Shown here: positions 1,230 through 44,414 of the stretch, one piece after another
Layout: each line of letters opens with the position of its first letter
Position numbering within the stretch: the first letter of the stretch is position 1
Assembly (NCBI GenBank): GCA_022447625.1
Contig: JAKVAX010000023.1
Span: 1-51,018 of the forward strand
Reading direction: 5' to 3'
Source: Flavobacteriales bacterium
Lineage (GTDB): Bacteria; Bacteroidota; Bacteroidia; Flavobacteriales_D; Sanyastnellaceae
DNA: 51,018 nt
The notes under the pieces: model-generated
The model's input: the letters and a program-made list of their open reading frames with translations, nothing else
Told to the model about the DNA's origin: nothing
The model's database searches: none
Translations under genes and position numbers: made by a program

Positions 1230-4200
1230 ATGAACTACCGTCTTATCCATCGGCTCCTGATCAAAGGAGTGGGCCTTTGGTGTGCACTGCTGTTTGCACA
1301 CCTAGGACTTGCTGCGCCGGAGTTTGTGAAGAACGACGGACAATGGGATGAACACATCAGGTACCGCACCGAATTACCGGGCGCCACCTTGTGGATGGAA
1401 GACAATGCGCTTACCTATCTATTGCTTGGTCATTCCTGGACCAGCTTTGGCCATCCAATTGAAGGTTTAGAAGACGACTATTCGGCACATGCTTACCGCA
1501 TGCGTTTCTTGGGTGCTTCGATTCCCACGATTAGTGGAAAAGACCCCTACTCACAATCATATAACTATTTCCGCGGTAGCGATGAAAGCCGCTGGAAACA
1601 AGGGGTGAAGGCCTTCGAGAGAATCAAATACACAGACCTGTATCAGAACATTGACCTGCTGATCTATAGCAAGGGTAGTAACCTCAAATATGATGTCAAT
1701 GTGCGACCGGGAGGAGATGTTTCAGACGTGAAATTCGGGTACGAAGGTGTGGATGCGTTGGAACTTGTTTATGGTCAGTTGAGAATTGAGACTTCCGTTC
1801 GAACCATTGTGGAGATGCGGCCATATGCCTATCAATTGATTGATGGGAAGCTCATTGAAGTCGACTGCGAATTTGTGGTTGACGGGAATGAGGTAAGCTT
1901 TGATGTGGGGGAGTACAACCCCTACTACGCGCTGGTCATTGATCCTGAGATCACGTTCGCCTCTTACATCGGATCAACAGCTTCGAATTTTGGTTTCACA
2001 GCAACAGACGACCCAGATGGAAATTTGATCGCAGGAGCCTGCATTTTTGGCGCCGGCTATCCCACAACCATTGGAGCAATTCAGGATTCTTGGGATATCA
2101 TCACCAACGGCTATTGCGACGTGGGTATTTCGAAGTTTTCTGCCGACGGTTCTCAGCTGATGTACAGCACGTATCTCGGGGGTGATGGCTTAGAAATGCC
2201 GCACAGTATCATTGCAGATGACGATGGTAATTTTGTGGTGATGGGAACCACGGGAAGCCTAAATTTCCCGACTTCAGGAGGCGCCTATCAACCCACACTC
2301 AATGGAGGTCCGCCCTTCCCGTTCAGTACGTTCTTTGTGAATGCGACACACCAAAATGGATGTGATTTCTTCGTCACGAAATTCAATGGTGACGATAGTG
2401 GTTTGCTAGCATCGACTTACATCGGAGGTAATGATACTGATGGTTTAAACGTCGCAGACAAACTCTTCTACAACTACGGTGATTCATTTCGGGGTGAAGT
2501 CATCATTGATGCGTCTGGAAGTATCGTTGTCGCTTCTACCACTTACAGCAACGATTTCCCGATGGGCGCTCCATCACCATTGATGTCGAACACTGGAATG
2601 CAGGATGGAATTGTCTTTCGCCTGAATGAAGACTTGACCGCCTTGCAATGGGCTTCATATATCGGAGGTACAGCAGATGATGCAGCCTACAGTGTGCAGC
2701 AAGACAGCAACGGCGGTTTGATTGTGACGGGTGGAACCAAGAGTTCATTCATTGATCAATGGGGCACGCCCTCTGTAGATGACACTTACAACGGAGATGT
2801 AGATGCTTTTGTCGTGAGGTTTAGTCTGGATGGAGGCAATGTTGAAGCCGCAACTTACCTAGGAACGACAGCCTATGAACAAGCCTATTTCGTTCAGTTA
2901 GATGCCGACGACAATATCTACCTCATTGGTCAAAATGAAGGTGATCTAGAGATTATTGGAGGTGTGTATGGGAACCCGGGAAGTGGACAGTTCATTGTGA
3001 AATACGACTACAACCTGTCTGCTATTCAATGGCAAACGACCATCGGAACCGGCAGTGGAGCTATTGATATTAGTCCGACAGCATTCTTGGTCAGTGACTG
3101 TGGTCAGATCTATTTCTCTGGTTGGGGTGGAATGACCAATGCACTCAATTCTGATTATGCCAACCAAAGCACGACCATTGGTTTGCCGATCACGCCGAAT
3201 GCCCAACAAACAGATACCGATGGTAGTGATTTCTACTTGGCTGTTCTTACCGCTAACGCGGAAGACCTAATGTATGCGACCTTCTTTGGTGGAGGAACAA
3301 GTAGGGAACACGTTGATGGGGGGACATCCAAATTCGACAAGGATTTCTCTGTCTATCAATCCGTTTGTGCGGGTTGTGGAGGAAATGATGATTTTCCAAC
3401 CACCCCCAATGCTTGGAGTAACGACAACGCCAGCGTCAATTGTAACCTAGGTGTCTTCAAATTCGACCTTGGACGCATCGAGGCCCAAATTGACATTGAC
3501 GGGCCAGCCGAAGTATGTGAGGGAAGCATCGCTGAATTCGTAAACAATACTTCTGGAGGCGATAGCTACGAGTGGTTCTTTGGAGACGATAATAGCAGTA
3601 CTCAGTTCGAACCAGATCATATTTATGAAGCAAACGGCACCTTCGAAATCACCCTCATTGTTAGCGATTCTGGTGACTGCTTAGAGTCTGACACCGCCTA
3701 CCTTCAGATCGAAGTATTACCCGGAGTCAATCCGACTTTAGAAGAAATTGATCCGATTTGTGAAGGCGATAGTGTTCAGCTTTTTGTCAATGGAAGTGAT
3801 AATGTTTACTGGTTAGATGATCCGACGTTGAGCGATACTTCCATCCCCAATCCATGGGCAACACCCGATGCACCAACGACCTACTACGCCGTTGACTTTA
3901 ACGATTGTGAAACGGATACCATTGGAGTGGTGGTAGATTGGATCCAAGTGGTGACGAATATTTCAGATGATGTCACGATTTGTGTTGGACAATCGACAAC
4001 ACTCACCGCAGAAGGAGGTGTTGATTATGTATGGACCCCAATTACTGGATTGGGAAGTCCGTTGAATGCTGAAACCACGGCCTCTCCTGAAGAAACCATC
4101 ACGTACACCGTTGAGATTACCACGGCTGATGGATGCTTGGCAGAAGAGTCAGTTACGGTCAACGTAGACCAGGATTTCCCAGGTGGAAATGTCTATGATC

Positions 4201-5129
4201 CGGTGGCGGTTTGTAACGGTCAGTATACCACTCTCGAAGCCCTAGACGGCATTAGTTGGAGTTGGGAACCAGCGGAATATTGTGATAATCCGAACTCTCA
4301 GACGCCGATTGTCACGGTTCCAGACACGACTCTTTTCACCGTCGAAGTCACCAATGCCTGTGGCACAGGAGAAGATCAAGTTTGGGTGAACGTCATCATT
4401 CCCAATGTTGAAGTGGGGAATGACGGTTCAGTGTGTTTTGGCGAATGGTACCCCGTTTCCGCTTGGGGTGCTGAGACCTACCAATGGCAACCTGCCTATT
4501 TGGTTGCGAATGATGAAGCTGAACAGACCTTTGTTCGTCCGGTGGATGATCAAGTCTTCACCGTCTACGGTACAGATGAGTATGGTTGTGTCGCTAGCGC
4601 GGAAGTGTTTGTAGACGTTCTTCCGTTGCCGTACGTGAATGCAGGTCCGGATCGTGTGCTGGAGTACCTCGAGTCAGACTACCTCTTCGGAACCGTCGAC
4701 GATACTGAATTCTGGTGGGAACCAGAGCTCTACATGGACTGTCCAGATTGCCTCACGCCGATCATCACTCCGCCCGAGAGTTTATGGTACGTGCTGCACA
4801 CGATTGATGCCAACGGATGTATCGGTAAAGACAGCGTATTCGTTGATGTATTCAGTCCGATTTATGTACCAAACACCTTCACCCCAGATAATGACGGCAT
4901 CAACGACATCTTCCTACCAGTAGGGGCCAACATCCGTGGTTTCCGCATGGAGATTTACAATCGTTGGGGTGAGCTAATCTTCGAAACAGAAGACCCAGAA
5001 AAAGGGTGGAACGGCTCCGTCAGAGGCGGCGAACATTACGTTCAAATCGACACCTACGTATGGATCGTGTACCATGATACCAAGGAGGGTAGGGAGAAGT
5101 TGGTTGGGCATGTGAATGTGATTCGGTAG
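1230..5129 (+). CDS. Large secreted SBBP/PKD protein with CHU_C gliding-type C-terminal domain (T9SS type B cargo)
   Basis: A 1299-residue exported protein, probably cell-surface or released. Residues 1-28 form a signal peptide ending near LGLAAP. Residues about 32-230 resemble the DUF7948 head (EFVKNDGQWDEHIRY). Residues about 240-740 hold repeated strand units of the SBBP type (for example MYSTYLGGDG and LASTYIGGND), typical of a beta-propeller. A PKD domain follows at about 757-835 (YEWFFGDDNSS, then HIYEANGTFEITLIV), then several Ig-like Cys-containing repeats. The last about 88 residues, beginning YVPNTFTPDNDGINDIFLP, are the gliding-motility-associated C-terminal domain that directs proteins through the type IX secretion system. 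Likely an adhesin or surface structural protein; the ligand cannot be read from sequence. The 13-base motif occurs three times in this gene (1569, 3251, 4592). Confidence 0.9.
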   Translation: MNYRLIHRLLIKGVGLWCALLFAHLGLAAPEFVKNDGQWDEHIRYRTELPGATLWMEDNALTYLLLGHSWTSFGHPIEGLEDDYSAHAYRMRFLGASIPTISGKDPYSQSYNYFRGSDESRWKQGVKAFERIKYTDLYQNIDLLIYSKGSNLKYDVNVRPGGDVSDVKFGYEGVDALELVYGQLRIETSVRTIVEMRPYAYQLIDGKLIEVDCEFVVDGNEVSFDVGEYNPYYALVIDPEITFASYIGSTASNFGFTATDDPDGNLIAGACIFGAGYPTTIGAIQDSWDIITNGYCDVGISKFSADGSQLMYSTYLGGDGLEMPHSIIADDDGNFVVMGTTGSLNFPTSGGAYQPTLNGGPPFPFSTFFVNATHQNGCDFFVTKFNGDDSGLLASTYIGGNDTDGLNVADKLFYNYGDSFRGEVIIDASGSIVVASTTYSNDFPMGAPSPLMSNTGMQDGIVFRLNEDLTALQWASYIGGTADDAAYSVQQDSNGGLIVTGGTKSSFIDQWGTPSVDDTYNGDVDAFVVRFSLDGGNVEAATYLGTTAYEQAYFVQLDADDNIYLIGQNEGDLEIIGGVYGNPGSGQFIVKYDYNLSAIQWQTTIGTGSGAIDISPTAFLVSDCGQIYFSGWGGMTNALNSDYANQSTTIGLPITPNAQQTDTDGSDFYLAVLTANAEDLMYATFFGGGTSREHVDGGTSKFDKDFSVYQSVCAGCGGNDDFPTTPNAWSNDNASVNCNLGVFKFDLGRIEAQIDIDGPAEVCEGSIAEFVNNTSGGDSYEWFFGDDNSSTQFEPDHIYEANGTFEITLIVSDSGDCLESDTAYLQIEVLPGVNPTLEEIDPICEGDSVQLFVNGSDNVYWLDDPTLSDTSIPNPWATPDAPTTYYAVDFNDCETDTIGVVVDWIQVVTNISDDVTICVGQSTTLTAEGGVDYVWTPITGLGSPLNAETTASPEETITYTVEITTADGCLAEESVTVNVDQDFPGGNVYDPVAVCNGQYTTLEALDGISWSWEPAEYCDNPNSQTPIVTVPDTTLFTVEVTNACGTGEDQVWVNVIIPNVEVGNDGSVCFGEWYPVSAWGAETYQWQPAYLVANDEAEQTFVRPVDDQVFTVYGTDEYGCVASAEVFVDVLPLPYVNAGPDRVLEYLESDYLFGTVDDTEFWWEPELYMDCPDCLTPIITPPESLWYVLHTIDANGCIGKDSVFVDVFSPIYVPNTFTPDNDGINDIFLPVGANIRGFRMEIYNRWGELIFETEDPEKGWNGSVRGGEHYVQIDTYVWIVYHDTKEGREKLVGHVNVIR

Positions 5130-5197: not shown

Positions 5198-5251
5198 ACT
5201 AACCATGCTAACCGCCGAAGGCGGACTAATCATGCTATCCGCCGAAAGCGG
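5198..5251. repeat. Two tandem 27-base hairpin units (ACTAAYCATGCTA + CCGCC hairpin)
   Basis: Units 5198-5224 and 5225-5251 each start ACTAAYCATGCTA and end with a short GC stem: CCGCC-GAA-GGCGG in the first, CCGC-CGAAA-GCGG in the second. A third unit is at 50461-50487 with CCTCCGGAGG in the stem position, and the ACTAACCATGCTA half recurs at 50488 and, reversed, near 49015-49027. Stem changes that keep pairing suggest that the hairpin rather than the base sequence is preserved. The remaining bases to 5328 show no further feature. Confidence 0.65.
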
Positions 5252-5328
5252 CCTATTAGAACCACTCATCAAGAATTCCCGGAACATTCGAATCCTTTGC
5301 TTAGTTTCGTTCCAAACCTGTTCCGATT

Positions 5329-7705: not shown

Positions 7706-10700
7706 ATGCATTCGTTCTCGCTGAATGTCAACCCATGCTTGTCATGCGTTGTCTTATTCCTATTTTTAGGACTTAGCCTAACTGCAAATTCACAAACCTA
7801 CACATGGGACTATCTAGGTAGTCAAGGAGTATCTTCTGGAACAGGAGAGTGGACGGAATTGGAATACAATCCGGTATCCGGTGAGCTATACCTAGCATTT
7901 CAAGATGAAGCCAACGCTGAGAAGATCACTGTCATGAAACATGATGGTGTTTCATGGTCAACAGTTGGGTCAGCCGGCTTTTCAGAAGGACAATCATTTC
8001 ACCCAGATCTTGAATTTGACAGTTCCGGGAATCCATATGTTGCGTACCGTTCTTTCCCAGGGGGGGCATATACAGTAGAAACCTTCGACGGTTCAAGCTG
8101 GTCTCCGGTAGGGACCGCTGGGTTTACCAATTTCTGTAATGGAGGAGGTACCTTGGCTATCGATCCAACGAATAACGACTTGTACTTGGCATATCCAGAT
8201 CTGGATAATGGAATGAGCAATCGTTTGAGCGTTCAAAAATGGGATGGTTCAAGCTGGAGTTTTGTCGGAAGTCAAGGAATAACAGCTGACGGTACCGGTT
8301 TTCCAAGCATCGAGTTCGATGCCTCAGGAACTCCACATGTATTGTATCGTTCGAATTCTTCGTATTCGTTGACATTATTGACGTTTGACGGCACGAACTG
8401 GAATACGGTCGGAAGCTCGAATTTCTCGAGTGCATCTCCGAGTGCCTATGGCGCTGCGTTGAAATTTAACCCTGTTTCGAATGAACCATGGGTAGTGACT
8501 AGAGGTAACGGCAATGTCCATTTCGCCTATCGATTTGACGGAACATCGTGGGTTGACGAAGGCCTCCCTTCGTACTCCTACTCTAGCTCTTCGAGACGAA
8601 TCTTTCTTGAATTTGATGCCGCTGGTAATGCCTATTTCGCTTTCAGAAGAAATGCTGGCACCCCTGTATTTACGATCAGCGTAGTCAGCAACGCTACAGG
8701 CACTTGGGACTATGCTGGAGACAGCACGATTCCTGAAGATTTAGCCGATTATCCATCAATGGAAATATCTCCTATGGGTGAACCGGTCATCGCATTCAGA
8801 GATGACAGTGGCGCTGGTGCAGGTAAAATTTCAGTGATCATGGCTTCGGTATCTATTGAAGGCTGTACCGACCCAACCGCCTGTAACTACAACTCCGAGG
8901 CAACTCAAGACGATGGTTCATGTTTAACAATTCAAGGTTGTACTGATGCATTGGCATGTAATTATGACGCTAGCGCGGAATGTGAAGATGGTTCGTGTAC
9001 GTACCCAGACCTTGGCCTTGATTGCGATGGCAATTGCGTTCCTAGCGTATTGATCACAGTTGATAGTGGAGCACCTGCTTCAATGGCGGGCTTATATGAC
9101 GTGGCATCGGATTGTGATTTTTCTGAAGGAGGAGCCTGGTTCGGAGGAGTAGACTACATGGTTTGTTTCCGAAAAGATGATGGTTCTGATTGGAGAATTT
9201 GGAATACAGGATGTGGTTGGGAAATTGGACGAATTGAGTCTGGTTCTTGGGAACGTTATGCGAGATATTATACAGGCCAGTGTAACCTCATTCCTGATGA
9301 ACAATTAGGATTTGAGGCATTGACTACCACCACCTTCTACGACGGATTTGGACAACTTATCGTTGGTATTGAATCTGAATTGTTTGGTCTTGAGGGATGT
9401 ACTGATCCATCTGCATGTAACTATGATGCGAATGCTCAATGCGATGATGGTTCATGTCTGACAATTCAAGGTTGTACTGATGCATTGGCATGTAATTATG
9501 ACGCTAGCGCGGAATGTGAAGATGGTTCGTGTTTGCTACCAGATGGTTGTACAGATCCAGAAGCTTACAACTATGATCCAGCCGCGACTTGTGATGATGG
9601 AAGCTGTACAGAATTTGGTTCAGCCTTAAATTTCAACGGAGTTAGCGGTGCTTTTGACGCGGTGAACATTCCAGTGGATGCTACAGTTTCCTTCGGTTCT
9701 GGAGCGTTTACCATCGAAACATGGTTCAGAATGAACTCTACTTCTGATTTTTCTTCCCTCCTTGCTGCCTACATGGTTTCGAACGGAGGGTGGGCCTTCC
9801 ACCGGGATGATCCAGAAAGTGGGTCCAATAATGTGCGTTTCATTGTAGGGAACGCCGCTGCTACCGGGACTTTCGAAAGTATTTATACAGGGCCTCTGAA
9901 CTTTGGAGAATGGTATCATATCGCCGGTGTTCGCGATGATAATGAGTTAAGGCTATATCTCAACGGGGTTCTCATTGGTTCGGTACCTTCATCTAGAAAT
10001 ATTCCCACACATCCTCTGCTTTTAGGAAAAAGGTATGTTGAGGTTCCACAATGGGGACACAACGGAGATCTTGATGAGGTACGTCTATGGGATCGAGCAT
10101 TGAATGAGGATGAAATTAATGCCCGCATGAATTGTGAGTTGAACGGAGATGAACCAGGATTGGTCCGTTACTACAAATTCAACCAAGGAGAAGCGTTTGG
10201 AGATAATACGTCAATCACTACGGCCACAAGTGATCATATTGCGAACCCGGTTGATGGAACGTTGTCAGGTTTTGCTTTGACAGGATCAGTAGCCAATTTC
10301 GTGGTTGGTCAAGACCTTACTGATCCTTGTTTACCATTGATCGAAGGATGTATGGATCCAACAGCGTGTAATTATGATGCAACGGCTCAAACGGATGATG
10401 GGTCGTGTTTAACTATTCCAGGTTGTATTGATCCAACTGCATGTAATTATGACGCTAGCGCGGAATGCGATGATGGCTCATGTATTCTACCTGATGGATG
10501 TACAGACGATACGGCATGTAACTACGACCCAGCAGCCCTTTGTGATGACGGTTCATGTGATTTCACATCATGTGTTGGATGCACTGATCCGTTAGCAGAC
10601 AACTACGAAGCAGATAACACCGTTGACGATGGGTCTTGTACTTACTGTCCGGCAACACTGACTTACAACACCACAATCGCGGAGCCGATTGTCATCGGAG

Positions 10701-11809
10701 ACGGGATCTCGAATAACCATATGGCTCAATCAGCGAACTGCAATGTTTCAGCTTCGATAAAGGCCGTTGAGCGTTTCGTAGGAGACATCATCCCAACTGA
10801 CGGACTTTACCGCGTACAAACAGGTGAATCTCCGGTCTCAGGGATTGATCCAACTCCTGATCCGGGAACTGCACGTTGGAATTATCTATTCAGTGTAAAC
10901 CTTGGCTCTTTCACCGCTGAAGACGTGAAGATTTACCTAGACCTTGATTTCGATCCGGCGGTTGGAGCTGGATCCGTATACACGGCAGATGTGTCACAAG
11001 TGCTCATCGACAATGGACTTGGCGGCTCATCCCTTGCACAAGACAGTCAGAACCTCGGGTTTGGTTTTTGGCAGTTGCTTGGTGATCCAGCTATTCTACC
11101 GTTCGATCCTTTCGCGAATGGCTTATACGATCTTACGATTCGTGTAGAATCATTAGCAGGAGTAGAATTGGTGAACGCAGCGATTCAAGTAGAAACATTC
11201 ACCTTAGGTTGTACAAACCCGATCGCATGTAACTACGATTCAAACGCAACAGACGACGATGGTTCATGTCTAGACATCCTCGGCTGTACCGATAGTGGTG
11301 CATGTAACTATGACCCAGCTGCTAATTGCGACGACGCTAGCTGTGAGTACACTTCTTGTCTCGGTTGTACTGATCCAACCTCATGTGATTACGATCCAAC
11401 GGCATCGATCGATGACGGTTCATGTTTGATCTTCCCAGGCGATGCCTGTGATGATGGTAATGTCTACACAGAAAATGATCAAATACAAGCTGATTGTGGA
11501 TGTGAAGGAACACCAATTGACACAGATGGAGATGGAATTTCTGATGAAGATGAAATCAACATCTACGGCACAGACCCTAACCTCCAAGATTCAGACTACG
11601 ATGGACTTACCGACGGACTAGAAATTAATCTTGCCGGCACGAACCCACTAGATCCAGATGGTGATGACGACGGATGTGGAGACGCAGAGTCATTCGCTGG
11701 TCTTTGTCCAGGTCAAGAAGACTGTATTGGAGACTTCAACAACGATGGCATTGTCAACGGAGCTGATCTACTGACTTTCCTAGGAGTATTCGGTACTCCG
11801 TGTGAATAG
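7706..11809 (+). CDS. Large secreted Cys/Asp-rich repeat protein with propeller, LamG-like and TSP3-like domains
   Basis: A 1367-residue exported protein. Residues 1-30 are a signal peptide (ending LTANSQ). Residues about 31-385 contain repeated blades such as WDGSSWSFVGSQG followed by PSIEFDASGTPHVLYR, consistent with a propeller. From residue about 386 there are about twelve copies of a roughly 24-residue unit, GCTDPTACNYD-x-x-A-x-x-DDGSC, probably Ca-binding and disulfide-bonded. A LamG/concanavalin-like domain (ALNFNGVSG to KFNQGEAFG) occupies about 640-830. DTDGDGISDEDE and following DxDxDG runs (about 1271-1320) are thrombospondin type 3-like. The end, DFNNDGIVNGADLLTFLGVFG, is a dockerin-like tail seen in secreted Cryomorphaceae-type proteins; I infer that it is a secretion or anchoring signal. 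No enzyme activity is evident. A TATATTCG box near 7664-7674 may be its -7 element. Confidence 0.88.
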   Translation: MHSFSLNVNPCLSCVVLFLFLGLSLTANSQTYTWDYLGSQGVSSGTGEWTELEYNPVSGELYLAFQDEANAEKITVMKHDGVSWSTVGSAGFSEGQSFHPDLEFDSSGNPYVAYRSFPGGAYTVETFDGSSWSPVGTAGFTNFCNGGGTLAIDPTNNDLYLAYPDLDNGMSNRLSVQKWDGSSWSFVGSQGITADGTGFPSIEFDASGTPHVLYRSNSSYSLTLLTFDGTNWNTVGSSNFSSASPSAYGAALKFNPVSNEPWVVTRGNGNVHFAYRFDGTSWVDEGLPSYSYSSSSRRIFLEFDAAGNAYFAFRRNAGTPVFTISVVSNATGTWDYAGDSTIPEDLADYPSMEISPMGEPVIAFRDDSGAGAGKISVIMASVSIEGCTDPTACNYNSEATQDDGSCLTIQGCTDALACNYDASAECEDGSCTYPDLGLDCDGNCVPSVLITVDSGAPASMAGLYDVASDCDFSEGGAWFGGVDYMVCFRKDDGSDWRIWNTGCGWEIGRIESGSWERYARYYTGQCNLIPDEQLGFEALTTTTFYDGFGQLIVGIESELFGLEGCTDPSACNYDANAQCDDGSCLTIQGCTDALACNYDASAECEDGSCLLPDGCTDPEAYNYDPAATCDDGSCTEFGSALNFNGVSGAFDAVNIPVDATVSFGSGAFTIETWFRMNSTSDFSSLLAAYMVSNGGWAFHRDDPESGSNNVRFIVGNAAATGTFESIYTGPLNFGEWYHIAGVRDDNELRLYLNGVLIGSVPSSRNIPTHPLLLGKRYVEVPQWGHNGDLDEVRLWDRALNEDEINARMNCELNGDEPGLVRYYKFNQGEAFGDNTSITTATSDHIANPVDGTLSGFALTGSVANFVVGQDLTDPCLPLIEGCMDPTACNYDATAQTDDGSCLTIPGCIDPTACNYDASAECDDGSCILPDGCTDDTACNYDPAALCDDGSCDFTSCVGCTDPLADNYEADNTVDDGSCTYCPATLTYNTTIAEPIVIGDGISNNHMAQSANCNVSASIKAVERFVGDIIPTDGLYRVQTGESPVSGIDPTPDPGTARWNYLFSVNLGSFTAEDVKIYLDLDFDPAVGAGSVYTADVSQVLIDNGLGGSSLAQDSQNLGFGFWQLLGDPAILPFDPFANGLYDLTIRVESLAGVELVNAAIQVETFTLGCTNPIACNYDSNATDDDGSCLDILGCTDSGACNYDPAANCDDASCEYTSCLGCTDPTSCDYDPTASIDDGSCLIFPGDACDDGNVYTENDQIQADCGCEGTPIDTDGDGISDEDEINIYGTDPNLQDSDYDGLTDGLEINLAGTNPLDPDGDDDGCGDAESFAGLCPGQEDCIGDFNNDGIVNGADLLTFLGVFGTPCE
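8927..8998 (+). repeat. 72-base perfect direct repeat inside the repeat-protein gene (second copy 9461-9532)
   Basis: Bases 8927-8998 and 9461-9532 are identical over 72 bases, including synonymous positions, and both encode one GCTDALACNYDASAECEDGSC unit. The other units of the protein differ at many third positions, so this pair has been duplicated or converted recently. A third, diverged copy at about 10410-10475 shares its middle part. Each of the three carries the 13-base motif. Confidence 0.9.
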
Positions 11810-13230: not shown

Positions 13231-14309
13231 TTGCGCTTCAACCAAGCATTTGGATTGTGGTCGTTACGAATGTCAGTAAGTGCCTTGGTCGCTGAAGTGC
13301 GGTTGGCGTAGCTACAATAGGCTACCATGTGAAGGTCTCCTTTCATTCCGAAGATACTAGCGTCATATCCTTCTGATTGGAGCTGGCTTACAAACTCTTC
13401 CGCGTTAGCGTGCTCGCGGAAAGCACCACCAACGACGAAATACAAGTTCAACGACGATGTAGATGCCTCAGGTGTAGCAACAGGAAGCTCAGCTTCAGGT
13501 TGCTCGAGATCAATGCGGACGCCATCAGGACTGATTTCATCATCGACGAACGAGTAGTAGAATGATGAAAGCGATGGGTTTTGCTTTACCTGCTCTTCCA
13601 AGATGTTGACATCGTTTGGAGGGGTCAGGCGAATATCTTCTTCCTCAAAGCGAGGAGTGTAGTCAGAGGCAGTTTCAGACATGTTCGGGAACATGGTCAG
13701 TTCAGCACCTTGAGGAGGGGACTGAATGAGATGTCCACCGAAGAGTAGGAATGGGATGGCTGCTGCGGCTGCAAGATTGCGAAGGGTTCTGTATCGACGT
13801 CTTGAATCTTCGTTTTCAATGCGCTCTACAGCGGGTTTGGCAGCTGCGATGGTAACAACCGGAGTTTCTTCTTCAACTTTCTCCGCTTGTCCGACCGGAT
13901 TCAGCGTTACGGCTTCCAGTCCGATGGCGCGAGTGTCGAAATTGGTCTCGGCAGCTGGTGAGAATTGAAGCGAACCTTCATTGTCTTTAAATAGGATGCC
14001 GACACCTTCGAATTGAACTTGCTTGCCCGCCGCTAATTGACGTTCTAGCCAGGCAACTTCAGAACGGATCAACGTCATCGCCTCAGCATACGACTTTCCC
14101 TCACGCATGCGTATGTCTTGTGCAAAGACACCGTCGTTATGAAATAGACGTGCATTAAACGATACCGACTTCCCAGGAGGAAGAATGACGCGCGTACGCT
14201 CATTTAAACGCGCAGATACATCGTTAGTCACAAAGCCACCGAGCTCTGGAATAACAACGCACTCATGTTCAAAGAGTAAGTTCGCAAGATGTTGTTGTAG
14301 GTATCCCAT
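13227..14309 (-). CDS. HU-CCDC81 and SPOR domain protein
   Basis: A 360-residue membrane-anchored protein thought to bind peptidoglycan. Residues 1-60 and 62-130 match the paired bacterial HU-CCDC81 domains (MGYLQQHLANLLFEHECVV, PELGGFV). A single hydrophobic stretch, LAAAAAIPFLLFGGHLI (about 176-193), is the likely transmembrane helix, giving a cytoplasmic N-terminus. Residues about 285-358 form a SPOR domain (LYFVVGGAFREHANAEEFV), which in known members binds denuded glycan strands at division sites. The acidic stretch between helix and SPOR is a flexible spacer. It lies between kdsB and a HAD phosphatase in one minus-strand run. A role in division or envelope organisation is inferred from the family. 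Confidence 0.88.
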   Translation of the reverse strand: MGYLQQHLANLLFEHECVVIPELGGFVTNDVSARLNERTRVILPPGKSVSFNARLFHNDGVFAQDIRMREGKSYAEAMTLIRSEVAWLERQLAAGKQVQFEGVGILFKDNEGSLQFSPAAETNFDTRAIGLEAVTLNPVGQAEKVEEETPVVTIAAAKPAVERIENEDSRRRYRTLRNLAAAAAIPFLLFGGHLIQSPPQGAELTMFPNMSETASDYTPRFEEEDIRLTPPNDVNILEEQVKQNPSLSSFYYSFVDDEISPDGVRIDLEQPEAELPVATPEASTSSLNLYFVVGGAFREHANAEEFVSQLQSEGYDASIFGMKGDLHMVAYCSYANRTSATKALTDIRNDHNPNAWLKRK

Positions 14310-14357: not shown

Positions 14358-15104
14358 CTAGCTGTAGACGCCAGAAGCGATGATTTTAGCCAGATCATCG
14401 GGTGTGTCAACTGCTGGTGATTCATACTTGGTAATACCACAATAGATTGATTTCCCGCGTTCAAGCCATCGAAGCTGCTCAAGCTTTTCTGATTGTTCGA
14501 GCACACCCTCTTCCAGGTGAACTATTTCTCGTAAAACCTCAGTTCGGTAAGCGTAAAGTCCAAGATGCTTGTAGTAATCATGTGAGTTTACCCAATCTTG
14601 AATCTTGCTTTCTCGCATGTATGGAATCGGACTACGACTGAAGTACAAAGCTTGCATCTGACTTCCCATGACCACCTTGACCTTGTTCGGGTCTAACAAG
14701 ACTTCCGGATCTTCGATACGCTTGACAAGGGTGGCTATTTCAACTTCTTCTTTGGCAATGAGCTGAGCTAATTGATCAAGTTGATCAGGCGACACAAAGG
14801 GCTCATCTCCCTGAATGTTGATTACCGCTTCCGCGCTAGCGTCAATCTTTTCAAAAGCTTCATGACATCTCTCTGTTCCACTATCGTGGGAAGGAAGAGT
14901 CATGATACTCTTACCGCCAAATTCATTCACATGGACAGCAATACGCTCGTCGTCTGTGGCTACCCAGACTTCGTTGATTGATGAACAAGAAAGCGCCTGT
15001 TCATAGACCCGTTGGATCATACTCTTGCCAAGAATATCAGCAAGTGGTTTGCCAGGAAAACGCGTGGAAGCGTAGCGAGCAGGGATAATTCCGATTATAC
15101 GCAT
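14358..15104 (-). CDS. kdsB: 3-deoxy-manno-octulosonate cytidylyltransferase (CMP-KDO synthetase)
   Basis: This enzyme activates KDO with CTP to CMP-KDO for lipid A-core assembly in the cytosol. The 248-residue length is typical. The N-terminal nucleotide-binding signature IPARYASTRFPGKPLADI (about 7-24) is diagnostic, and INIQGDEPFV (about 95-105) holds the metal- and substrate-binding QGDEP motif. YFSRSPIPYMR and HLGLYAYR are further family blocks. The ATG at 15104-15102 shares its last T with the TAA of the upstream TonB receptor gene, so the two are probably co-transcribed and translationally coupled. Confidence 0.96.
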   Translation of the reverse strand: MRIIGIIPARYASTRFPGKPLADILGKSMIQRVYEQALSCSSINEVWVATDDERIAVHVNEFGGKSIMTLPSHDSGTERCHEAFEKIDASAEAVINIQGDEPFVSPDQLDQLAQLIAKEEVEIATLVKRIEDPEVLLDPNKVKVVMGSQMQALYFSRSPIPYMRESKIQDWVNSHDYYKHLGLYAYRTEVLREIVHLEEGVLEQSEKLEQLRWLERGKSIYCGITKYESPAVDTPDDLAKIIASGVYS

Positions 15105-18714: not shown

Positions 18715-19051
18715 CGTTCTTATCGAAGAATACTTGAGCCTGAACCAATCCATTGTGAATGGTGTTCAGCAAGAACTTAGTTCGTAGATCGCGCTCTTCG
18801 TCTGAATCAGCTTCCTTGATCAGCGAGAGATTGTCATTCAATTCTTGCATGAACGACGGCTGAGTGTAAGGCTGAAGATCGTGGAGGTAACGTTCAAGAA
18901 GGAGGTAGTTAGCTGACCATCTGCGCTCTGAAACGTAGCGTAGCGCTTCCGCGTTAGCGCGTTCAAAACGATTGGCAATCATCTCAAGGATCTGCTTCCT
19001 AAAGTCACTGTCGTACCCTGAGATCTTTGTAAGTAAGTGATAGTTGATCAT
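18668..19051 (-). CDS. Small helical protein, probable degenerate Hpt-like domain lacking the phospho-His
   Basis: A 127-residue all-helical soluble protein that I do not recognise by name. It aligns without gaps over its first half with the Hpt protein encoded just upstream: KISGYDSDFRKQILEMI against ALSRHNQSFIREILEVY, and the shared Trp at 45 against 46. At the position of the phospho-accepting His (H54 in the neighbour), this protein has Glu53. I therefore infer a paralogous Hpt fold that cannot be phosphorylated in the usual way. The start at 19051 (MINYHLL) fits the domain; an ATG at 19099 would add 16 non-conserved residues. The gene order suggests co-transcription with the Hpt gene. 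Confidence 0.6.
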   Translation of the reverse strand: MINYHLLTKISGYDSDFRKQILEMIANRFERANAEALRYVSERRWSANYLLLERYLHDLQPYTQPSFMQELNDNLSLIKEADSDEERDLRTKFLLNTIHNGLVQAQVFFDKNAMTSKDPNAVQAKGE

Positions 19052-27500: not shown

Positions 27501-29020
27501 TACGCAGTGATTCTGGCTAGTCCGTCACGCATTCTCTTCAGGGTTTCTTCCTTCCCAAGGAATTCCGCGATAGCGAACATAGAAGGACCACCGCCTTCAC
27601 CTGTCACCAACAAACGGAAATTCGGAAGCACAGCACCCATGCCCAACTCATTCGACTCCAAGTATCCTTTGAAGCCTGTTTCAATAGATGCGGCATCGAA
27701 AGAATCAATACCATCAAGCACGGTAATCAAACCTTCCATGATTTGAGGAGTGGCTTCTTTCCATTTTTTGCGAAGTGTCTTTTCATGGTAAGTTTCAGGA
27801 GCTGCGAATAGATAATCGGCGGCAATCAACTCATGAGCAAATGCGCTTCGTTCGGCCATCATAGCTGCGATTTGAACGCACTTATCAGCACTCAACTCAA
27901 CGCCTTGTTCATCGAGCATTGACTGAATCATGCTTCCTAATTCCTCATGGCTTTTCGCTCGTAAATAGTGTTCATTGAACCACTTGGCCTTGTCAGGGTT
28001 GAAGCGTGCTCCAGACTTGACAACGCGTTCTAGAGAGAATGCTTTGATCATCTCGTCGTTCGAGAATACTTCTTGCTCATCTCCAGGGTTCCATCCTAAC
28101 ATCAGCAACATGTTGATGAAGGCCTCAGGGAAGTATCCGCTTTCACGGTACCCTGAAGAAACATTCCCTGATTTAGGATCATTCCATTCCAGCGGGAATA
28201 CAGGGAAACCTCCTTTATCGCCATCGCGTTTGCTGAGCTTACCGTTTCCTGTAGGCTTCAGGATCAACGGCAAATGAGCGAATTTCGGAGCTTCCCAGCC
28301 CAACGCACGGTATAAAAGAATATGCAACGGTGCCGATGGCAACCACTCTTCACCGCGAATCACATGCGAAATCTCCATCAAGTGATCGTCTACAATATTC
28401 GCCATGTGATAGGTCGGGAACTGATCGCGTTTTAGCAGAACTTTATCGTCAAGAACCTTGGTCTGAATGCGAACCACACCGCGAATCTCGTCTTCAAATA
28501 CCACCTCTTCATCGGCCGGAATTTTGAAACGAACGGTGACTGGAATATCTGAAGCAAGCAACGTCTCTACCTCGTCTGCGGGCAAACTCAAAGAGTTACG
28601 CATGTCCATGCGCGTAGATGCGTCGTACTGCCAAACAGATTTGTTGGCCTCAGCTTCCGTCCGCTTCGCAGCAATTTCTTCCGGGGTGTCAAATGCATAG
28701 TAAGCATCACCATTCTCGATCAATTGCTTCACGTATTGGCCGTTCAATTCCATGCGTTCAGATTGACGGTAAGGACCAAAATCTCCACCGTATCCAACAC
28801 CTTCATCTGGTTCAATCCCACACCATTTCAGCGCTTCTAAGATGTAATCTTCAGCACCAGGAACGAAGCGAGTTTGATCAGTGTCTTCAATACGAAGAAT
28901 GAACTTCCCTCCATGGTTGTGAGCAAAAAGGTAATTGTAGAGCGCCGTTCGCACACCTCCCATATGAAGTGGCCCTGTTGGACTCGGAGCGAAACGTACA
29001 CGTACTTGATTCGTTGCCAT
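27500..29020 (-). CDS. gltX: Glutamate--tRNA ligase
   Basis: Charges tRNA-Glu with glutamate in the cytosol. The 506-residue class I synthetase has the HIGH-type motif in [19 protein letters not shown] (about 11-29) and the KMSKS-type motif KLSKRDG (about 255-261). [21 protein letters not shown] is the conserved block before it. The C-terminal about 170 residues form the helical anticodon-binding domain. Whether it is discriminating or also charges tRNA-Gln cannot be told here. TATCTTTG at 29041-29048 on the same strand is a good -7 element, 20 bases before the ATG. The gene precedes folB with a one-base overlap. Confidence 0.96.
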
Positions 29021-36924: not shown

Positions 36925-38560
36925 ACTTTCCGAAGAGCTGCGCCAAGAGCTCGCTGATGCCGTAGATCGATTTATATCCTACGGAGCCATCATGGATCGT
37001 CAAACTCGTCGATACATCGCTGCTTGGGTACAAGAAAAATTGATTCCCGGAGTCGCAGATCTTGACGAACTGGATCCAGAGTATTTCCGCTATTTTGAGG
37101 AGGCAATAGGTCATGTACTCGAGGATGAATTACTTCAGGAGATCTGTCAGAGCCATTCAAACCTCGCCGTTCAAATTGTGAAAGATATGTTGGTGTGGTT
37201 CCGAAGGTCATTTTCTATGATGGAAGAAGGCCATGCGTTTGAAGAAGAACAAGTTGCCCTGGAGTCTTGGACGGTTCGTCCAATGGAGCACGTGTTTGAG
37301 CGGTGGGGCTTCTTTCGGAAAACAATTGCGAATTACTACACCTCAGATGAGATCGATAGCTCGTATCATACTTTCCGCGTTAGCGAGATCAAACAACAGA
37401 GTAACTGGGGAGAGCTGAGGCCATCGCTTCGTTTAGAAATTGAGCGACTATTTGATGATCTGCTGCGCCAATGGGACGCCATGATGTACGCTAAGATCCT
37501 AGCTTTTCGTTTGAAGCGTGCCGATAAGCTCATCAATGATTTGGGTGAGAATCTTCTAGGGAAAGCCAGAGAATTCAAGCAGCTGAACGAGCTCATTGAG
37601 CCGTTTGCAGGATATGCTTCAAGGTATTGGGACCTCAGTCGCGACCTCTGGTCGGATAGCAGCTTTGATGTCATCGAGAAGTTCCGAGATCTCTTGGAGA
37701 AAGAGGACGAGATCAAGGCGTTGGCTGATATGCTCGGCAAGATGCGTCAAGCAGACCTTTTGACCGAGGAAGATGAGTTCACACAGATCACCGAATACGA
37801 AGCAGAAACCCGTGATCCGAACCGTAAGGAAGAGGTGATAGGGGTGTTTGAAAGCAATGATCTGAACCATTTGATTTCTTCTGAGGCTGCGCTACTGGCT
37901 GACGAAGCAACGGAGAGCATCTTTCTTAAGAAGTTTGCTGATCAAGCCCTGTTGACTCAGCAGTTTGAAACGAAGGTCACGACGTCGAATACAGATCAAG
38001 AAAAGATCAAGTACGAGCGAACTAAGAAGAAAGAGAAGGGTCCTTTCATTATTTGTGTAGACACCTCTGGGTCGATGGAAGGGAAGCCTGAGATGATTGC
38101 GAAGGTGCTCTGTTTTGCGATTATGAAAATGGCTAGCGCCGAAAATCGTAGAGCCTATTTGATCAACTTCTCGACTGGCATCAAGACCCTTGATCTACTC
38201 AACATCTCTGATGATCTTGACGGCTTGGCTGAATTCCTTCGCATGTCTTTTATGGGGGGCACAGATATTTCGCTGGCATTGCATGAGGCATTGACTCAAC
38301 TACAAGAAGAGAGCTATGAAGATGCCGACGTCTTGGTGATTTCAGACTTCATCATGTACAAGTTAGACAGCGATGTCTCCCGTAGAATGGAGTTTCAACA
38401 AGTGAATCACAACACGCGTTTCCATAGTTTGATCATTTCTGATGAAGGAAACCAAGCCATCATTGATCTATTCGACAATGTGTGGTTTTACGATCCGGAA
38501 CAAAAAGGGATTCTTCGAAGTATTCGAAATGAGCTGGCGAAGGTGATAGAAGACTACTGA
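36908..38560 (+). CDS. VWA domain protein, ViaA-like partner of the RavA-like ATPase
   Basis: A 550-residue protein with a mainly helical, acidic N-terminal about 350 residues and a C-terminal von Willebrand A domain. The metal-ion-dependent adhesion site is complete: DTSGSMEGK (about 385), a Thr in FMGGTDISLAL and an Asp in VLVISDFIMY. In E. coli, ViaA stimulates RavA and the pair affects respiratory complexes and aminoglycoside uptake; that role is inferred here. ATG 36908, inside the 3' end of the ATPase gene, is preferred to an upstream TTG, and the overlap suggests coupled translation. One exact 13-base motif (37373) and one variant (38132) lie in this gene. Confidence 0.83.
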   Translation: MKNSNKLSEELRQELADAVDRFISYGAIMDRQTRRYIAAWVQEKLIPGVADLDELDPEYFRYFEEAIGHVLEDELLQEICQSHSNLAVQIVKDMLVWFRRSFSMMEEGHAFEEEQVALESWTVRPMEHVFERWGFFRKTIANYYTSDEIDSSYHTFRVSEIKQQSNWGELRPSLRLEIERLFDDLLRQWDAMMYAKILAFRLKRADKLINDLGENLLGKAREFKQLNELIEPFAGYASRYWDLSRDLWSDSSFDVIEKFRDLLEKEDEIKALADMLGKMRQADLLTEEDEFTQITEYEAETRDPNRKEEVIGVFESNDLNHLISSEAALLADEATESIFLKKFADQALLTQQFETKVTTSNTDQEKIKYERTKKKEKGPFIICVDTSGSMEGKPEMIAKVLCFAIMKMASAENRRAYLINFSTGIKTLDLLNISDDLDGLAEFLRMSFMGGTDISLALHEALTQLQEESYEDADVLVISDFIMYKLDSDVSRRMEFQQVNHNTRFHSLIISDEGNQAIIDLFDNVWFYDPEQKGILRSIRNELAKVIEDY

Positions 38561-39221: not shown

Positions 39222-39617
39222 ATGTTGACGCGCATTTCATCAGCTCTTTTCTTGGTATGGTACGCTGCCATTACCACCGGTTTTCAGGTCCATTTGCATT
39301 ACTGCTGTGGTCATCTGGCTGGTATTGAGGTGCATTCTATGGCTAGCGCCGAAGAGGATACCTGTTGCGATTCACATCAGACTGCATGTTGCTCAAAGAA
39401 GGGGTGTTGCTCTTCTGAAGATGTTGTTCTGGCCTTTGATGAAGACAAGCAGTTCTTCGGAGCTAGTGCAGCACTTTCTAAGATTCAGTATGTATCAAGC
39501 ACTGACTTCTATGAAATAGAAATCGACGTGCAACGTACAGCGCATCAAACAGTGCACGTGCTTCCGCACGGCCCTCCGCTGTATCTTCTCTACGAACAAC
39601 GCCTTCATTATGGATGA
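39222..39617 (+). CDS. Small secreted Cys/His-rich protein, HYC_CC_PP type
   Basis: A 131-residue exported protein with a signal peptide (MLTRISSALFLVWYAAITTG). It has the signature features of the HYC_CC_PP family as I recall it: HLHYCCGH after the signal peptide, a CC pair within a run of Cys (CCDSHQTACCSKKGCCSS) and HGPPLYLLY near the end. Eleven or so Cys and several His suggest that it binds a soft metal such as copper in the periplasm. Start 39222 is chosen because the promoter box overlaps the earlier GTG. It is the first gene of a three-gene set with an HMA protein and a TonB receptor; one 13-base motif variant occurs at 39342. Confidence 0.78.
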   Translation: MLTRISSALFLVWYAAITTGFQVHLHYCCGHLAGIEVHSMASAEEDTCCDSHQTACCSKKGCCSSEDVVLAFDEDKQFFGASAALSKIQYVSSTDFYEIEIDVQRTAHQTVHVLPHGPPLYLLYEQRLHYG

Positions 39618-40169: not shown

Positions 40170-42438
40170 GCCACTCGGGCTGGTCCTTGCCTTTTCCTTT
40201 TTATTCCTAAGCGATTCCGCGTTAGCGCAGAAGAACTACCCAAAATTCGTCAAAGGGAAGGTCATGACGCCTTGTCCTTCTGGAGGGCCTACACCTGACC
40301 CATTGCCTGGGGCGAATGTCTATTGGAAGGGAACACAGGTAGGCGAGATGACGGACGCCTACGGCTTCTTCAAAATTCGCACAGACCAAGCTACCGACAC
40401 GCTGGTATTCTCTTTTGTGGGCTATACCACCGGATACGTCTTGTACGAAGGTCAAGACTATTTAGAGGTGACCTTAGCCGCAGGAGAGTTGATTGACGCA
40501 GCCGAAGTGGTGAGCGATGGCGGGAGCACCAGAATGGAGATGCTTGACCCCCGCGTTGCTCAAACCATTGATAGACGCGAGTTAACTAAAGCGGCCTGTT
40601 GCAATCTGAGTGATAGCTTTGAAACAAACGCTAGTGTTGATGCCTCATATACGGATGCTGTTACAGGTTCAAAGCAGATCAAAATGCTCGGACTCGATGG
40701 CAAATACGTTGAAATGACCAAGGATAATCTACCGGCCATTCGCGGCTTAGCGACCATCTTTGGACTGTACAATGTACCGGGTCCTTGGGTAGATCAGATC
40801 CATATTTCGAAAGGGGTAGGGTCAGTAACCAGCGGATATGAGAGCATTACAGGACAGATCAATGTCTCATTGAAGAATCCGGTAAATGCTGAGAAGTACT
40901 ATCTGAATTTGTACGGGAATCAAGGAGGGCGAACAGAACTCAATTTCCATACACGTCAGAATGTAGGTCGCAAGTGGGGGACAACCATCATGCTTCACAC
41001 GGAATACGGTAACCTTCAAATGGACAACAACGAGGATGGTTTCATGGATAATCCGTTGAAGGAAGACCTTGTTTTCCGAAATCAATGGATGTACGCAGGA
41101 GATCGGGGCTTGGAAGGGCAGTACGCACTCACGGCAGTCACACGAAATATTCAAGGTGGACAGTTGAGCAGTCTAGCCACTGGTGATGGTGGTTTCGATG
41201 CCCTTTGGAGGTCTGAGATTGACATGAAACAGCTGCAAGCCGCTGCCAAAACGGGGTATGTATTTCCTGGTCAAAACTGGAAGAGCTTTGGCTCACAATT
41301 CTCAGGAGAGTACTACGAACAGAACTCGAACTTTGGTGAACGCACCTACCGCGGAGTGCAACGCTACTTTAGAGGAAACGTGCTTTACAGTTCGATCATT
41401 GGCAATACCAATCACAAGTTCACCACGGGTGTTAGTTATATCTACGACAGCTATGATGAAGACCTCGATAGCCTGAACTACGTTCGAACAGAGCAGGTTC
41501 CAGGTGCGTTCTTTGAGTATACCTGGTCGAATATTGAGCGTTTTACCCTCGTGGCTGGGATGCGTGTTGATGACAACAACCTGTACGGGTTGTTCTGGAC
41601 CCCTCGGATGCATTTCCGCTACAGTTTAACCGAGAACACTTCGATAAAAATGGTGGGTGGACGAGGCTACCGTACTGCCAATGTGATCATGGAGAACATG
41701 GGCCAGTTGGCGAGTAATCGTCGATGGGTGTTCGAAAGCCAAGCGAATCTACCAGGTTTCGGGCTTCGTCCTGAAGTAGCTTGGAACTACGGAGTGAACT
41801 TCTTGCACAGATTCAGATTGGCATATCGCGATGCGACCCTCTCGCTTGATTTCTATCGTACCGATTTTGAAGATCAAGTGATTACCGACTTAGAGAATGC
41901 ACGCGAGGTGCGCTTTTACAATTTGGAAGGCAGTAGTTTCTCAAACAGTGCGCAAGCTGAGTTCAGCTGGTCTCCGATACGAAGAGTTGATGTGCGTGTG
42001 GCGTATCGTTGGCTAGAGGTGAAGACTGACTTTAAGCAAGGTCGAGTTGATCTACCGTTGGTGTCGACACATCGTGCGTTCACCAACATTGGATACGAGA
42101 CTAAGAAGAACGACAAAGAAGCACAATGGAAATTTGACGTTACGTTCCAGTGGATTGGTGATCAACGTATTCCGAGCACAGCTTTGAATGATGAGGAATT
42201 CCAATTGGAGGAACGGAGCGATGACTACTTCTTGTTGAATGCGCAAGTGACGCGTGTTTTCTCAAAGTCATTTGAGGTATATGTTGGTGGAGAAAACCTA
42301 CTCAACTTCCAACAACCGAATGTTGTTCTATCTGCAGAAGATCCATACAGTGAATTCTTTGATGCTTCACTTGTTTGGGGACCGGTATTCGGTTCCATGG
42401 TATACGGCGGCTTGCGTTGGATGCCTTGGAGTGAATAA
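40141..42438 (+). CDS. TonB-dependent receptor, probable copper or other metal importer
   Basis: A 765-residue outer-membrane receptor. ATG 40141 begins a good signal peptide (IIKPLGLVLAFSFLFLSDSALAQ) and overlaps the HMA gene by 29 bases; the open frame upstream is only the other frame of that gene. A CarboxypepD_reg-like domain follows (DPLPGANVYWKGTQVGEM). The plug contains ELTKAACCNLSDSFETN, a CC-containing block seen in receptors that travel with HMA and HYC_CC_PP genes, and then DGKYVEMTKDNLPAIRGLA. The barrel extends to a final aromatic strand (GGLRWMPW). Copper as ligand is inferred from the neighbours and the Cys pair. A bidirectional terminator follows. Confidence 0.88.
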   Translation: MKTTITAIIKPLGLVLAFSFLFLSDSALAQKNYPKFVKGKVMTPCPSGGPTPDPLPGANVYWKGTQVGEMTDAYGFFKIRTDQATDTLVFSFVGYTTGYVLYEGQDYLEVTLAAGELIDAAEVVSDGGSTRMEMLDPRVAQTIDRRELTKAACCNLSDSFETNASVDASYTDAVTGSKQIKMLGLDGKYVEMTKDNLPAIRGLATIFGLYNVPGPWVDQIHISKGVGSVTSGYESITGQINVSLKNPVNAEKYYLNLYGNQGGRTELNFHTRQNVGRKWGTTIMLHTEYGNLQMDNNEDGFMDNPLKEDLVFRNQWMYAGDRGLEGQYALTAVTRNIQGGQLSSLATGDGGFDALWRSEIDMKQLQAAAKTGYVFPGQNWKSFGSQFSGEYYEQNSNFGERTYRGVQRYFRGNVLYSSIIGNTNHKFTTGVSYIYDSYDEDLDSLNYVRTEQVPGAFFEYTWSNIERFTLVAGMRVDDNNLYGLFWTPRMHFRYSLTENTSIKMVGGRGYRTANVIMENMGQLASNRRWVFESQANLPGFGLRPEVAWNYGVNFLHRFRLAYRDATLSLDFYRTDFEDQVITDLENAREVRFYNLEGSSFSNSAQAEFSWSPIRRVDVRVAYRWLEVKTDFKQGRVDLPLVSTHRAFTNIGYETKKNDKEAQWKFDVTFQWIGDQRIPSTALNDEEFQLEERSDDYFLLNAQVTRVFSKSFEVYVGGENLLNFQQPNVVLSAEDPYSEFFDASLVWGPVFGSMVYGGLRWMPWSE

Positions 42439-43346: not shown

Positions 43347-44414
43347 CTAGAACAATCGCATTTGGTCAGAAGGGATTTCGAATTGACTCAAGTCTAAAGA
43401 AGATGGAGGTGGAGCATGGAGGTATTGTTTCCGCGCTAGCGATACCATAGCTTTCACCTGTTCCGCAATTCTGCCTTCGCCGCGCATTCGATCTCCAAAA
43501 TCACTGGCATTAAGGGTTCCGCTGTGAGTTTCGCGTATCTGGTTGAGCACCTTGTTGGCGCGATCGGGAAAAGCTTCCCAAACCCAGTCTTCGAAGATGT
43601 CGCTGATCTGACCATTCAATCTGACCAGAATGTAGTTGACACTGTAAGCCCCACGTTGCCCTACTTCCTTGACAAGGTTAAAGACTTCATAATTATTCAA
43701 CCCTGGGATGATCGGAGCCATGTTCACATTCACGGAGATTCCTTCCTTAGTCAGTATTTCAAGTGCTTTCAGACGCTGTTTGATTGTCGATGTTCTCGGC
43801 TCCATGGCGCGTCGTAAGTCTTCGTTGAGGGTGGTAATAGATAGGGTCAGTCTGAGCAGATTAAGCTCGTTGAGCTCTTTGAGAATGTCGAGATCCCGGA
43901 GGATGAGGGCATTCTTAGTGATCAGTCCTACTGGGTTTTTGTATTTCAGGAATGTTTGGAGGAGCTGCCGAGTGATCTTGAACTTTCTTTCTGCCGGTTG
44001 GTAGCAATCGGTATTACCGCTGAGTGGTACCAATTCGGGTTGGTATCCCCTGCGTTCAAACCACTTCTCTAACATTTTCGGTGCGCTGGGTTTGTAAAGA
44101 ATGGTTCGCTCAAAATCTTCACCTGCGCTATAGCCCCAGTATTCATGGCTGTTTCGGGCGTAGCAATAGACGCAACCGTGCTCGCACCCTTGGTAGGGGT
44201 TGATTGACCACGTGAAGGGTACATCCGGACTATTATTCTTGGTCACAATGGTCTTGGGGAAGACTTCAATGTAGCGCGTCTTATTGTCCTCAAACGCTTC
44301 GCCTTCGAGGGCGCAGTGCTCGAGGTAGTCATCCAACACCTCATATTCATGCTGAAAGAATCGGTTGTGTGGGTTGGTGGTGGAACCGCGTTGTGCTCTA
44401 TGTTTTTTCATCAT
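43347..44414 (-). CDS. Radical SAM protein, PA0069 family (SplB-like)
   Basis: A 355-residue iron-sulfur enzyme. CEHGCVYCYARN (Cx3Cx2C) binds the [4Fe-4S] cluster that cleaves S-adenosylmethionine; NPYQGCEHG and PLSGNTDCYQPAE are typical of the PA0069 group. The barrel continues through GLITKNALILRDLDIL and ITTLNEDLRRAMEPR. No member of this group has a firmly established reaction that I know of, but SplB-like ancestry and this gene's overlap with dnaE suggest a DNA-repair role. The ATG shares one base with the dnaE stop codon, so the two are co-translated. One 13-base motif (43429) lies near its 3' end. Confidence 0.9.
   Translation of the reverse strand: MMKKHRAQRGSTTNPHNRFFQHEYEVLDDYLEHCALEGEAFEDNKTRYIEVFPKTIVTKNNSPDVPFTWSINPYQGCEHGCVYCYARNSHEYWGYSAGEDFERTILYKPSAPKMLEKWFERRGYQPELVPLSGNTDCYQPAERKFKITRQLLQTFLKYKNPVGLITKNALILRDLDILKELNELNLLRLTLSITTLNEDLRRAMEPRTSTIKQRLKALEILTKEGISVNVNMAPIIPGLNNYEVFNLVKEVGQRGAYSVNYILVRLNGQISDIFEDWVWEAFPDRANKVLNQIRETHSGTLNASDFGDRMRGEGRIAEQVKAMVSLARKQYLHAPPPSSLDLSQFEIPSDQMRLF

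Follow-up and report, generated by a model that had tools for sequence, protein, structure and literature searches.

The DNA considered here, referred to as the 'window', is a stretch of 51,018 nucleotides (positions 1 to 51,018 of contig JAKVAX010000023.1, assembly GCA_022447625.1) from a Flavobacteriales bacterium, the genome of which I designate G000 (a 3.9 Mb draft; 3,907,113 bases in 76 contigs). Dispersed across this window, and indeed across G000 as a whole, is a 13-base motif, TTCCGCGNTAGCG. That motif is not a linear word but instead the form most often taken by a hairpin, TTC-[3-bp stem]-GNTA-[stem'], i.e., by a small fold along with a short 5' leader. It is next to certain that this hairpin plus leader is itself a signal.

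The window holds 16 exact copies of the motif, 9 on the forward strand (+) and 7 on the reverse (-), at the positions reported in a first-pass annotation of this DNA, versus none in 100 dinucleotide shuffles. All have the form TTC-CGC-loop-GCG. The loop is GGTA at 1569-1581 (+); GTTA at 3251-3263 (-), 13398-13410 (+), 18947-18959 (+), 37373-37385 (+) and 40215-40227 (+); GATA at 27563-27575 (+), within a gene resembling that of a Glu/Gln-tRNA synthetase; and GCTA at 4592-4604 (-), 8968-8980 (-), 9502-9514 (-), 10453-10465 (-), 14829-14841 (+), 21595-21607 (-), 23213-23225 (+, intergenic), 26895-26907 (-) and 43429-43441 (+). Each is kept in G047, a congener of G000 (91% identical; one 4.1 Mb contig), except for that at 8968, which is unaligned in this comparison; the copy at 10453 is kept with a different loop base. 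The counterpart of the 26895 copy in G048, which is the third member of this genus, is ungapped and reads TTCGGCACTAGCC. The copies at 8968, 9502 and 10453 sit, as had been noted, in units of a paralogous repeat within a single gene. That gene, at 7706-11809, specifies a large protein in which a repeat of some 25 residues recurs many times (67-nt copies, 11 of them aligned). Two relatives of the motif, reported at 38132 and 39342, are present as the 13-mers 38131-38143 (-) and 39341-39353 (-), both of the form TTC-GGC-GCTA-GCC; a G047 sample (L153) has both in the same form and with the same spacing between them. Present too is an inverted arrangement at 44587-44602.

A genome-wide count at background level, which had been named beforehand as refuting the motif's significance, is not what is seen. 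G000 possesses 667 copies (360 + 307 by strand), versus 1 for a reversed-pattern control. There are 770 in G047, mixed over both strands, 1 in G048, and 0-2 in each of the remaining genomes of a 114-genome family sample; counts are 0-4 per genome in a phylum sample of 395 genomes, G000 excepted (both samples include G000). Nor is protein constraint the cause, again as had been proposed. For a 451 kb sample of G000, used for 13-mer anatomy and placement, codon usage over the 99,723 codons of long open reading frames (ORFs) predicts 0.057 copies, whereas 77 of the 93 exact copies found there lie within predicted genes (gene predictions being those of a custom ORF and codon-score script).

Stem pairing and the leader

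When read as single-stranded DNA, TTC-CGC-GNTA-GCG consists of an unpaired 5' leader, a 3-bp stem, and a 4-base loop, and the predicted DNA fold gives this hairpin at -2.7 kcal/mol. The 12 fixed bases are sharply bounded, with 93 exact versus 26 one-mismatch copies, 12 of those 26 mismatches being at loop positions 8-9. The true unit nevertheless is wider than the 13-mer, as 3-bp stems besides CGC/GCG are found as well. Thus, among 461 TTCnnnGnTAnnn words in a 470 kb sample of G000 (used for stem pairing), the arms are fully paired in 133, and paired stems other than CGC/GCG number 36 versus the 4.9 that would be expected given independent arms; the equivalent numbers for a 660 kb sample of G047 are 50 versus 6.7. 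With control leaders in G000, only 5 of 247 words (CTT) and 9 of 343 words (GAA) are paired. The swapped G-C form, TTCGGCGNTAGCC, has 82 copies in G000 and 99 in G047, versus 0-1 in each of 12 other family genomes. As TTCSGCGNTAGCS totals 758 in G000 and 878 in G047, one-sided forms by subtraction number just 9 and 9. At one orthologous site a T:A pair has become C:G, with both sides of the pair having changed between G000 and G047.

These paired stem variants represent compensatory covariation, and the window relatives at 38131 and 39341 belong among them. The key clue in fact was present in the first-pass annotation, which had remarked upon the joint change of bases 4 and 13 in those relatives but had not taken it as base pairing. 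A plain double-strand protein site, which that annotation had also entertained, leaves this covariation unexplained. Beyond 3 bp no excess of pairing is seen between the flanks of G000 stems, other than of the fixed leader bases with an A-rich flank. The leader itself is recovered even when not imposed, with T, T and C found at 98, 95 and 100 of 102 G000 hairpins. With GC-rich paired stems included there are 128 sites in the 470 kb of G000, i.e., 0.27 per kb, which extrapolates to approximately 1,060 sites genome-wide. Main-form density is about one per 5.3-6.3 kb in G000, G047 and G048. One G047 stretch (positions 320001-340000) has a GC content of only 0.349, yet three motif sites are present.

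GNTA loops differ from the GNRA type of RNA. G.T wobble within stems is not clearly in excess, at 11 of 56 and 14 of 67 non-Watson-Crick cells versus the 1 in 6 expected if mismatch types were equal. Loops of the GNA, GNNA or GNAB type are seen in G000 and G047 (GNTA), in most of G016, which belongs to a different genus of the same family, and in part of G028, another family genome; GNNA and GNAB tetraloops, according to PMC8373063, fold stably in DNA. Loop classes, the wobble result, and free orientation relative to genes together favor, though they do not establish, DNA rather than RNA as what is folded.

Conservation, placement and dialects

Within regions common to G000 and G047, 52 of 56 aligned sites are intact, with 3 lost by one substitution and 1 poorly aligned; 7 further sites are unaligned. 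If wider flanks are required, then 50 of 54 G000 sites are kept in G047 versus 138 of 378 same-phase control 13-mers (36.5%), and 51 of 58 versus 155 of 406 in the reverse direction, from G047 to G000. Motif positions are 98.8% identical between these genomes versus 92.2% for the flanks. Pairing matters here as well: GC-rich paired stems other than CGC are identical at 13 of 14 G000-derived sites and at 13 of 17 G047-derived sites, with 1 more of the latter altered yet still paired, versus identity at 54 of 174 unpaired TTCnnnGnTAnnn words of G000. Upon alignment of G000 and G047 sites to the more distant G048 (60-75% identity), 20 of 22 alignments, which include some sites counted twice as both G000 and G047 copies, are ungapped around the site. 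Sites therefore arise mostly in place, by substitution. A G048 leader-hairpin lies within 20 bp and in the same orientation at 3 of 18 unique positions versus 17 of 2100 random aligned positions, a coincidence with a chance of about 4e-4; some sites thus appear to outlast a change of dialect, three cases being few.

Sites in G000, G047 and G048 are neutral with regard to coding versus intergenic position, with 77 of 93, 63 of 70 and 48 of 60, respectively, in predicted genes, given coding fractions of 0.825, 0.853 and 0.813. The copies are randomly spaced: when G000 is taken together with the matching stretches of G047, the 125 gaps between sites follow an exponential distribution (Kolmogorov-Smirnov p = 0.77). 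Antisense orientation is in excess within G000 genes (59:18), which is because of codon usage; reading frames track that usage, for which the expected share of the main antisense frame is 0.59. Relative to local GC skew, orientation in the G047 sample is even, at 60:58 (stretches with |skew| below 0.01 being excluded), and the earlier argument that such neutrality speaks against Chi or KOPS (FtsK-orienting polar sequences) is borne out.

Relatives carry the same leader-plus-hairpin design but in different 'dialects'. In G048 it is CATC-CNNCGC-TTYT-GCGN'N'G, i.e., a 6-bp hairpin, the searched form of which occurs in 598 copies with none in G000 or G047. Its arms are complementary in 72 of 75 cases (shuffled mean 11, maximum 22) over 13 different arms, and leader T and C are recovered unforced at 71 of 71. 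The G016 dialect is CATC-CNNCC-[GTTA, GATA, GTTTA, GTTCA...]-GGN'N'G, a 5-bp hairpin with an A-rich tail, for which paired words number 32 of 175, 24 of 232 and 6 of 213 with loops of 4, 5 and 3 bases, when about 1 or fewer are expected of each. That of G028 is CATTT followed by highly varied mini-hairpins, with loops GAA, GAAT, GTA, GATA, CTTGT and TTTAT. Summed over loop lengths of 3-5, there are 44 paired matches among 107 CATTTGC words versus 32 among 342 control words and, upon scanning for hairpins first, ATTT precedes 41 of 92 hairpins in G028 versus 0 of 168 in G000 and 1 of 218 in G016. Two additional genomes, G014 (WTC-GCGAAGC) and G045 (CATC hairpins), supply unproven hints of dialects.

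Other dispersed or repeated words were encountered among these same genomes. TTTGGCCYA occurs 18 times in 60 kb of G043 (L195-L197) versus about 0.85 expected, with no hairpin, and possibly is another type of dispersed word. TTCCGGACA in G031 (L178-L180) and TCATNTCCAC in G044 (L187-L188) are over-represented in what are small samples, with AATCAT following some copies of these words. GATCCCC-like words of short-unit arrays are over-represented in G048 stretches (L022-L041). One stretch of a G045 contig (C3; L186, 6929-10074) is CRISPR-array-like, in that 45 nearly identical units recur about every 71 bp, separated by sequence that varies.

What might read the signal

The following proposal sets out from genome-wide copies, the leader, arm covariation, strong conservation, origin by substitution, replichore neutrality, and dialects. 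It is that a putative trans-acting protein would read the short unpaired 5' leader (TTC here), along with the DNA mini-hairpin directly following it (3-bp stem, GNTA loop), on single-stranded DNA while tolerating either strand. The likeliest setting, in keeping with the uptake-like signal that the first-pass annotation had listed among its options, would be natural transformation or the exchange of single strands. In DNA that is coming in or has been resected, either strand may be single-stranded, and such DNA would be labeled as self by a mark roughly every 4-6 kb. Dialects could arise through reader and site co-evolution, as with DNA uptake sequences, and sites might be kept by biased uptake or recombination (molecular drive), by selection, or by both. 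What is favored, with modest confidence, is a reader of single strands that acts during uptake or strand exchange, because Riemerella, a flavobacterium, is described in PMC8459023 as transforming via ComEC, DprA, ComF and a SusC-type outer-membrane protein, among others, and because ComEC is present in 11 of 11 genomes examined. A dispersed, structure-coded signal of chromosomal self-DNA, read as a fold by such a protein, likeliest during uptake or strand exchange, is in these terms a tentative explanation, one which I would put at somewhat short of an even chance. The broader statement, that members of this Flavobacteriales family mark their chromosomes every 4-6 kb or so with a lineage-specific leader and mini-hairpin, at genic sites which are kept by selection or drive and are read single-stranded so that self can be recognized when genes are exchanged or strands processed, would seem as apt to be right as wrong.

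A number of observations weigh against that explanation. The fold is what is observed, while the reader protein and the function are what is proposed. A single G000 hairpin is only modestly stable relative to shuffles (z of -1.85 and -2.30 for two loop forms). G048 loops (TTTT, TTCT, TTTC, TTTG) fall outside of the GNNA class, as too do CTTGT and TTTAT of G028 fall outside of the GNA, GNNA and GNAB types. G028 stems vary little, making arm shuffling a weak test, with one of three loop lengths within the shuffled range. K-mer and leader scans of ten other family genera, sampled at 26-60 kb, show no clear dialect, a size at which G028-like dialects are mostly missed: upon resampling at 60 kb, the signal is strong in all 20 of 20 subsets of G016 and likewise of G048, in the latter sometimes stemming from tandem arrays, versus 3 of 20 for G028. 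G002 (16 kb) and G068 (20 kb) figured in just one of these scans. Just 6 of 9 G048 sites are ungapped when aligned to G000 or G047. Intergenic sites are in excess in G016 (16 of 82, coding fraction 0.907) and in G028 (33 of 100, coding fraction 0.807), the latter count including chance hairpins. Uptake sequences of Haemophilus and Neisseria are depleted in coding DNA, according to PMC7811141, unlike the sites of G000, G047 and G048. ComEC is equally present in genomes in which a dialect was not seen. Around sites divergence shows no significant dip, the observed value being equaled in 256 of 1000 shifts, and there consequently is no support from this quarter for an uptake or strand-exchange reader; a recombination footprint, as an identity gradient around sites, accordingly was set aside. 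With regard to a link to type IV pili the picture is mixed: T2SSE, the pilus/secretion ATPase family, exceeds the cut-off in just 5 of the 114 family genomes, of which G000, G047 and G028 are three, and is without match in G048 and G016, both of which bear dialects.

Alternatively, the sites may be a Chi-type signal of recombination or repair, where an end-processing nuclease or single-strand handler reads leader and hairpin on the resected strand. Site density resembles that of Chi in E. coli, and sites are conserved, coding-neutral and born of substitution; Chi, however, is read as a linear word, whereas stem sequence here is free if paired, and there is no replichore polarity, so this reading is unlikely. 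A nucleoid- or chromosome-organizing protein that binds the sites as duplex, as cruciform, or as transiently single-stranded DNA would be consistent with their even spread over the genome and their neutrality toward strand and gene. A reader of duplex, though, has no need of arm complementarity, and 3-bp arms presumably are too short for cruciform extrusion, which makes this a quite unlikely alternative. An RNA-level element, i.e., a transcript hairpin serving in decay, pausing or binding, could in principle be bound via hairpin and tag by an RNA protein, and copies should be transcribed since most lie in genes. The occurrence of both orientations relative to genes, an antisense excess that codon usage explains, the lack of clear wobble excess, and a loop not of the RNA GNRA type render this decidedly improbable; the window has 0 matches in Rfam. 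Scarcely credible is that mutational bias alone, with template switching perfecting functionless quasi-palindromes, is responsible, for while this would give perfect arms, it leaves fixed leaders, loop classes, dialects, and the keeping of 50 of 54 sites unexplained.

Lastly, the sites could be repetitive extragenic palindromic (REP)-like elements of a Y1/HUH transposase (a REP-associated tyrosine transposase, RAYT), or of a domesticated relative, which would read a 5' tetranucleotide and hairpin. The tag-plus-hairpin design is common to REPs, CGTC-tagged REPs are known from Bacteroidetes and REPs may sit inside of genes (as per PMC3733652), and 26 of the 114 family genomes have Y1_Tnp, among them G000, G047, G048, G016 and G028. 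Against this, G000 and G047 share one dialect, yet their single Y1 proteins look by eye to be of different types (E of 9.2e-26 and 3.0e-4), and neither 3.3-kb Y1 locus of these two genomes contains a dialect site, i.e., there is no cognate Y1 gene flanked by the repeat; the Y1 loci of G048 and G016 have one dialect site each and those of G028 have CATTTGC words. Sites, too, are mostly not insertions of extra DNA (20 of 22 and 6 of 9 ungapped, with the 3 losses in G047 being single substitutions), are kept at one position, and are not mainly extragenic in G000, intergenic sites being a minority even in G016 and G028. REP-like elements are for these reasons improbable, and a RAYT/REP origin, given Y1 distribution and types, ungapped sites, and Y1 loci lacking a dialect site in G000 and G047, was rejected. 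A separate, REP-like hairpin repeat, ACTAAYCATGCTA, which is distinct from the motif, occurs in the window at 5198-5255, 50461-50508 and 49015-49027 (- strand). Its copies, 10 in the 470 kb of G000 and 14 in the 660 kb of G047, often form tandem arrays, with a unit of about 27 bp and with CCGCC-n-GGCGG.

Comparison with known dispersed signals

Known dispersed signals, i.e., Chi, KOPS, the DNA uptake sequence (DUS) and HIP1, are sequence words, while tagged hairpins, i.e., REPs, are regarded as mobile elements that lie mainly outside of genes. Here, by contrast, hundreds of host-maintained and mostly genic sites are defined by fold and tag, with dialects that shift between close relatives. No such signal was found for Bacteroidota in the open-access literature searched. 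If the explanation favored above, that of a single-strand reader, is correct, then some protein inspects chromosomal DNA for shape while it is single-stranded, which would open a direct way into the specificity of uptake, or the processing of single strands, in Bacteroidota.

Chi and KOPS are dispersed and over-represented, including in coding DNA, as is the signal described here. Theirs, though, is polarity toward origin or terminus, versus no polarity here, and this signal is a fold rather than a word. HIP1 is a highly repeated short word in the genes of cyanobacteria, similarly short, repeated and genic, but it is a palindrome of duplex DNA, whereas the present signal is a looped hairpin with an asymmetric leader. 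The suggestion of a HIP1-like palindrome, raised in the first-pass annotation, does not hold up because the base at position 8, which is free, is something other than C in 35 of 93 copies, where the 8-bp palindrome is thereby broken, and because what is conserved is a hairpin with a one-sided 5' TTC.

REPs, with GTAG or CGTC tags, the latter type being found in Bacteroidetes, likewise consist of a short hairpin, one end of which carries a tag that is unpaired (as presented in PMC3733652). Unlike with REPs, tags here are TTC, CATC and CATTT, stems in most sites are 3-6 bp, and sites are substitution-born, mostly genic and strongly conserved between G000 and G047, with none beside the Y1 gene of either. 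The DUS of Neisseriaceae and the uptake signal sequences (USS) of Pasteurellaceae, as characterized in PMC3630211, are short signals dispersed over both strands with lineage dialects, as is seen here. Those signals, however, are linear sequence words of greater density, whereas here the stem is free to vary so long as it is paired. The resemblance to the dialects of DNA uptake sequences, that is, is one of behavior only.

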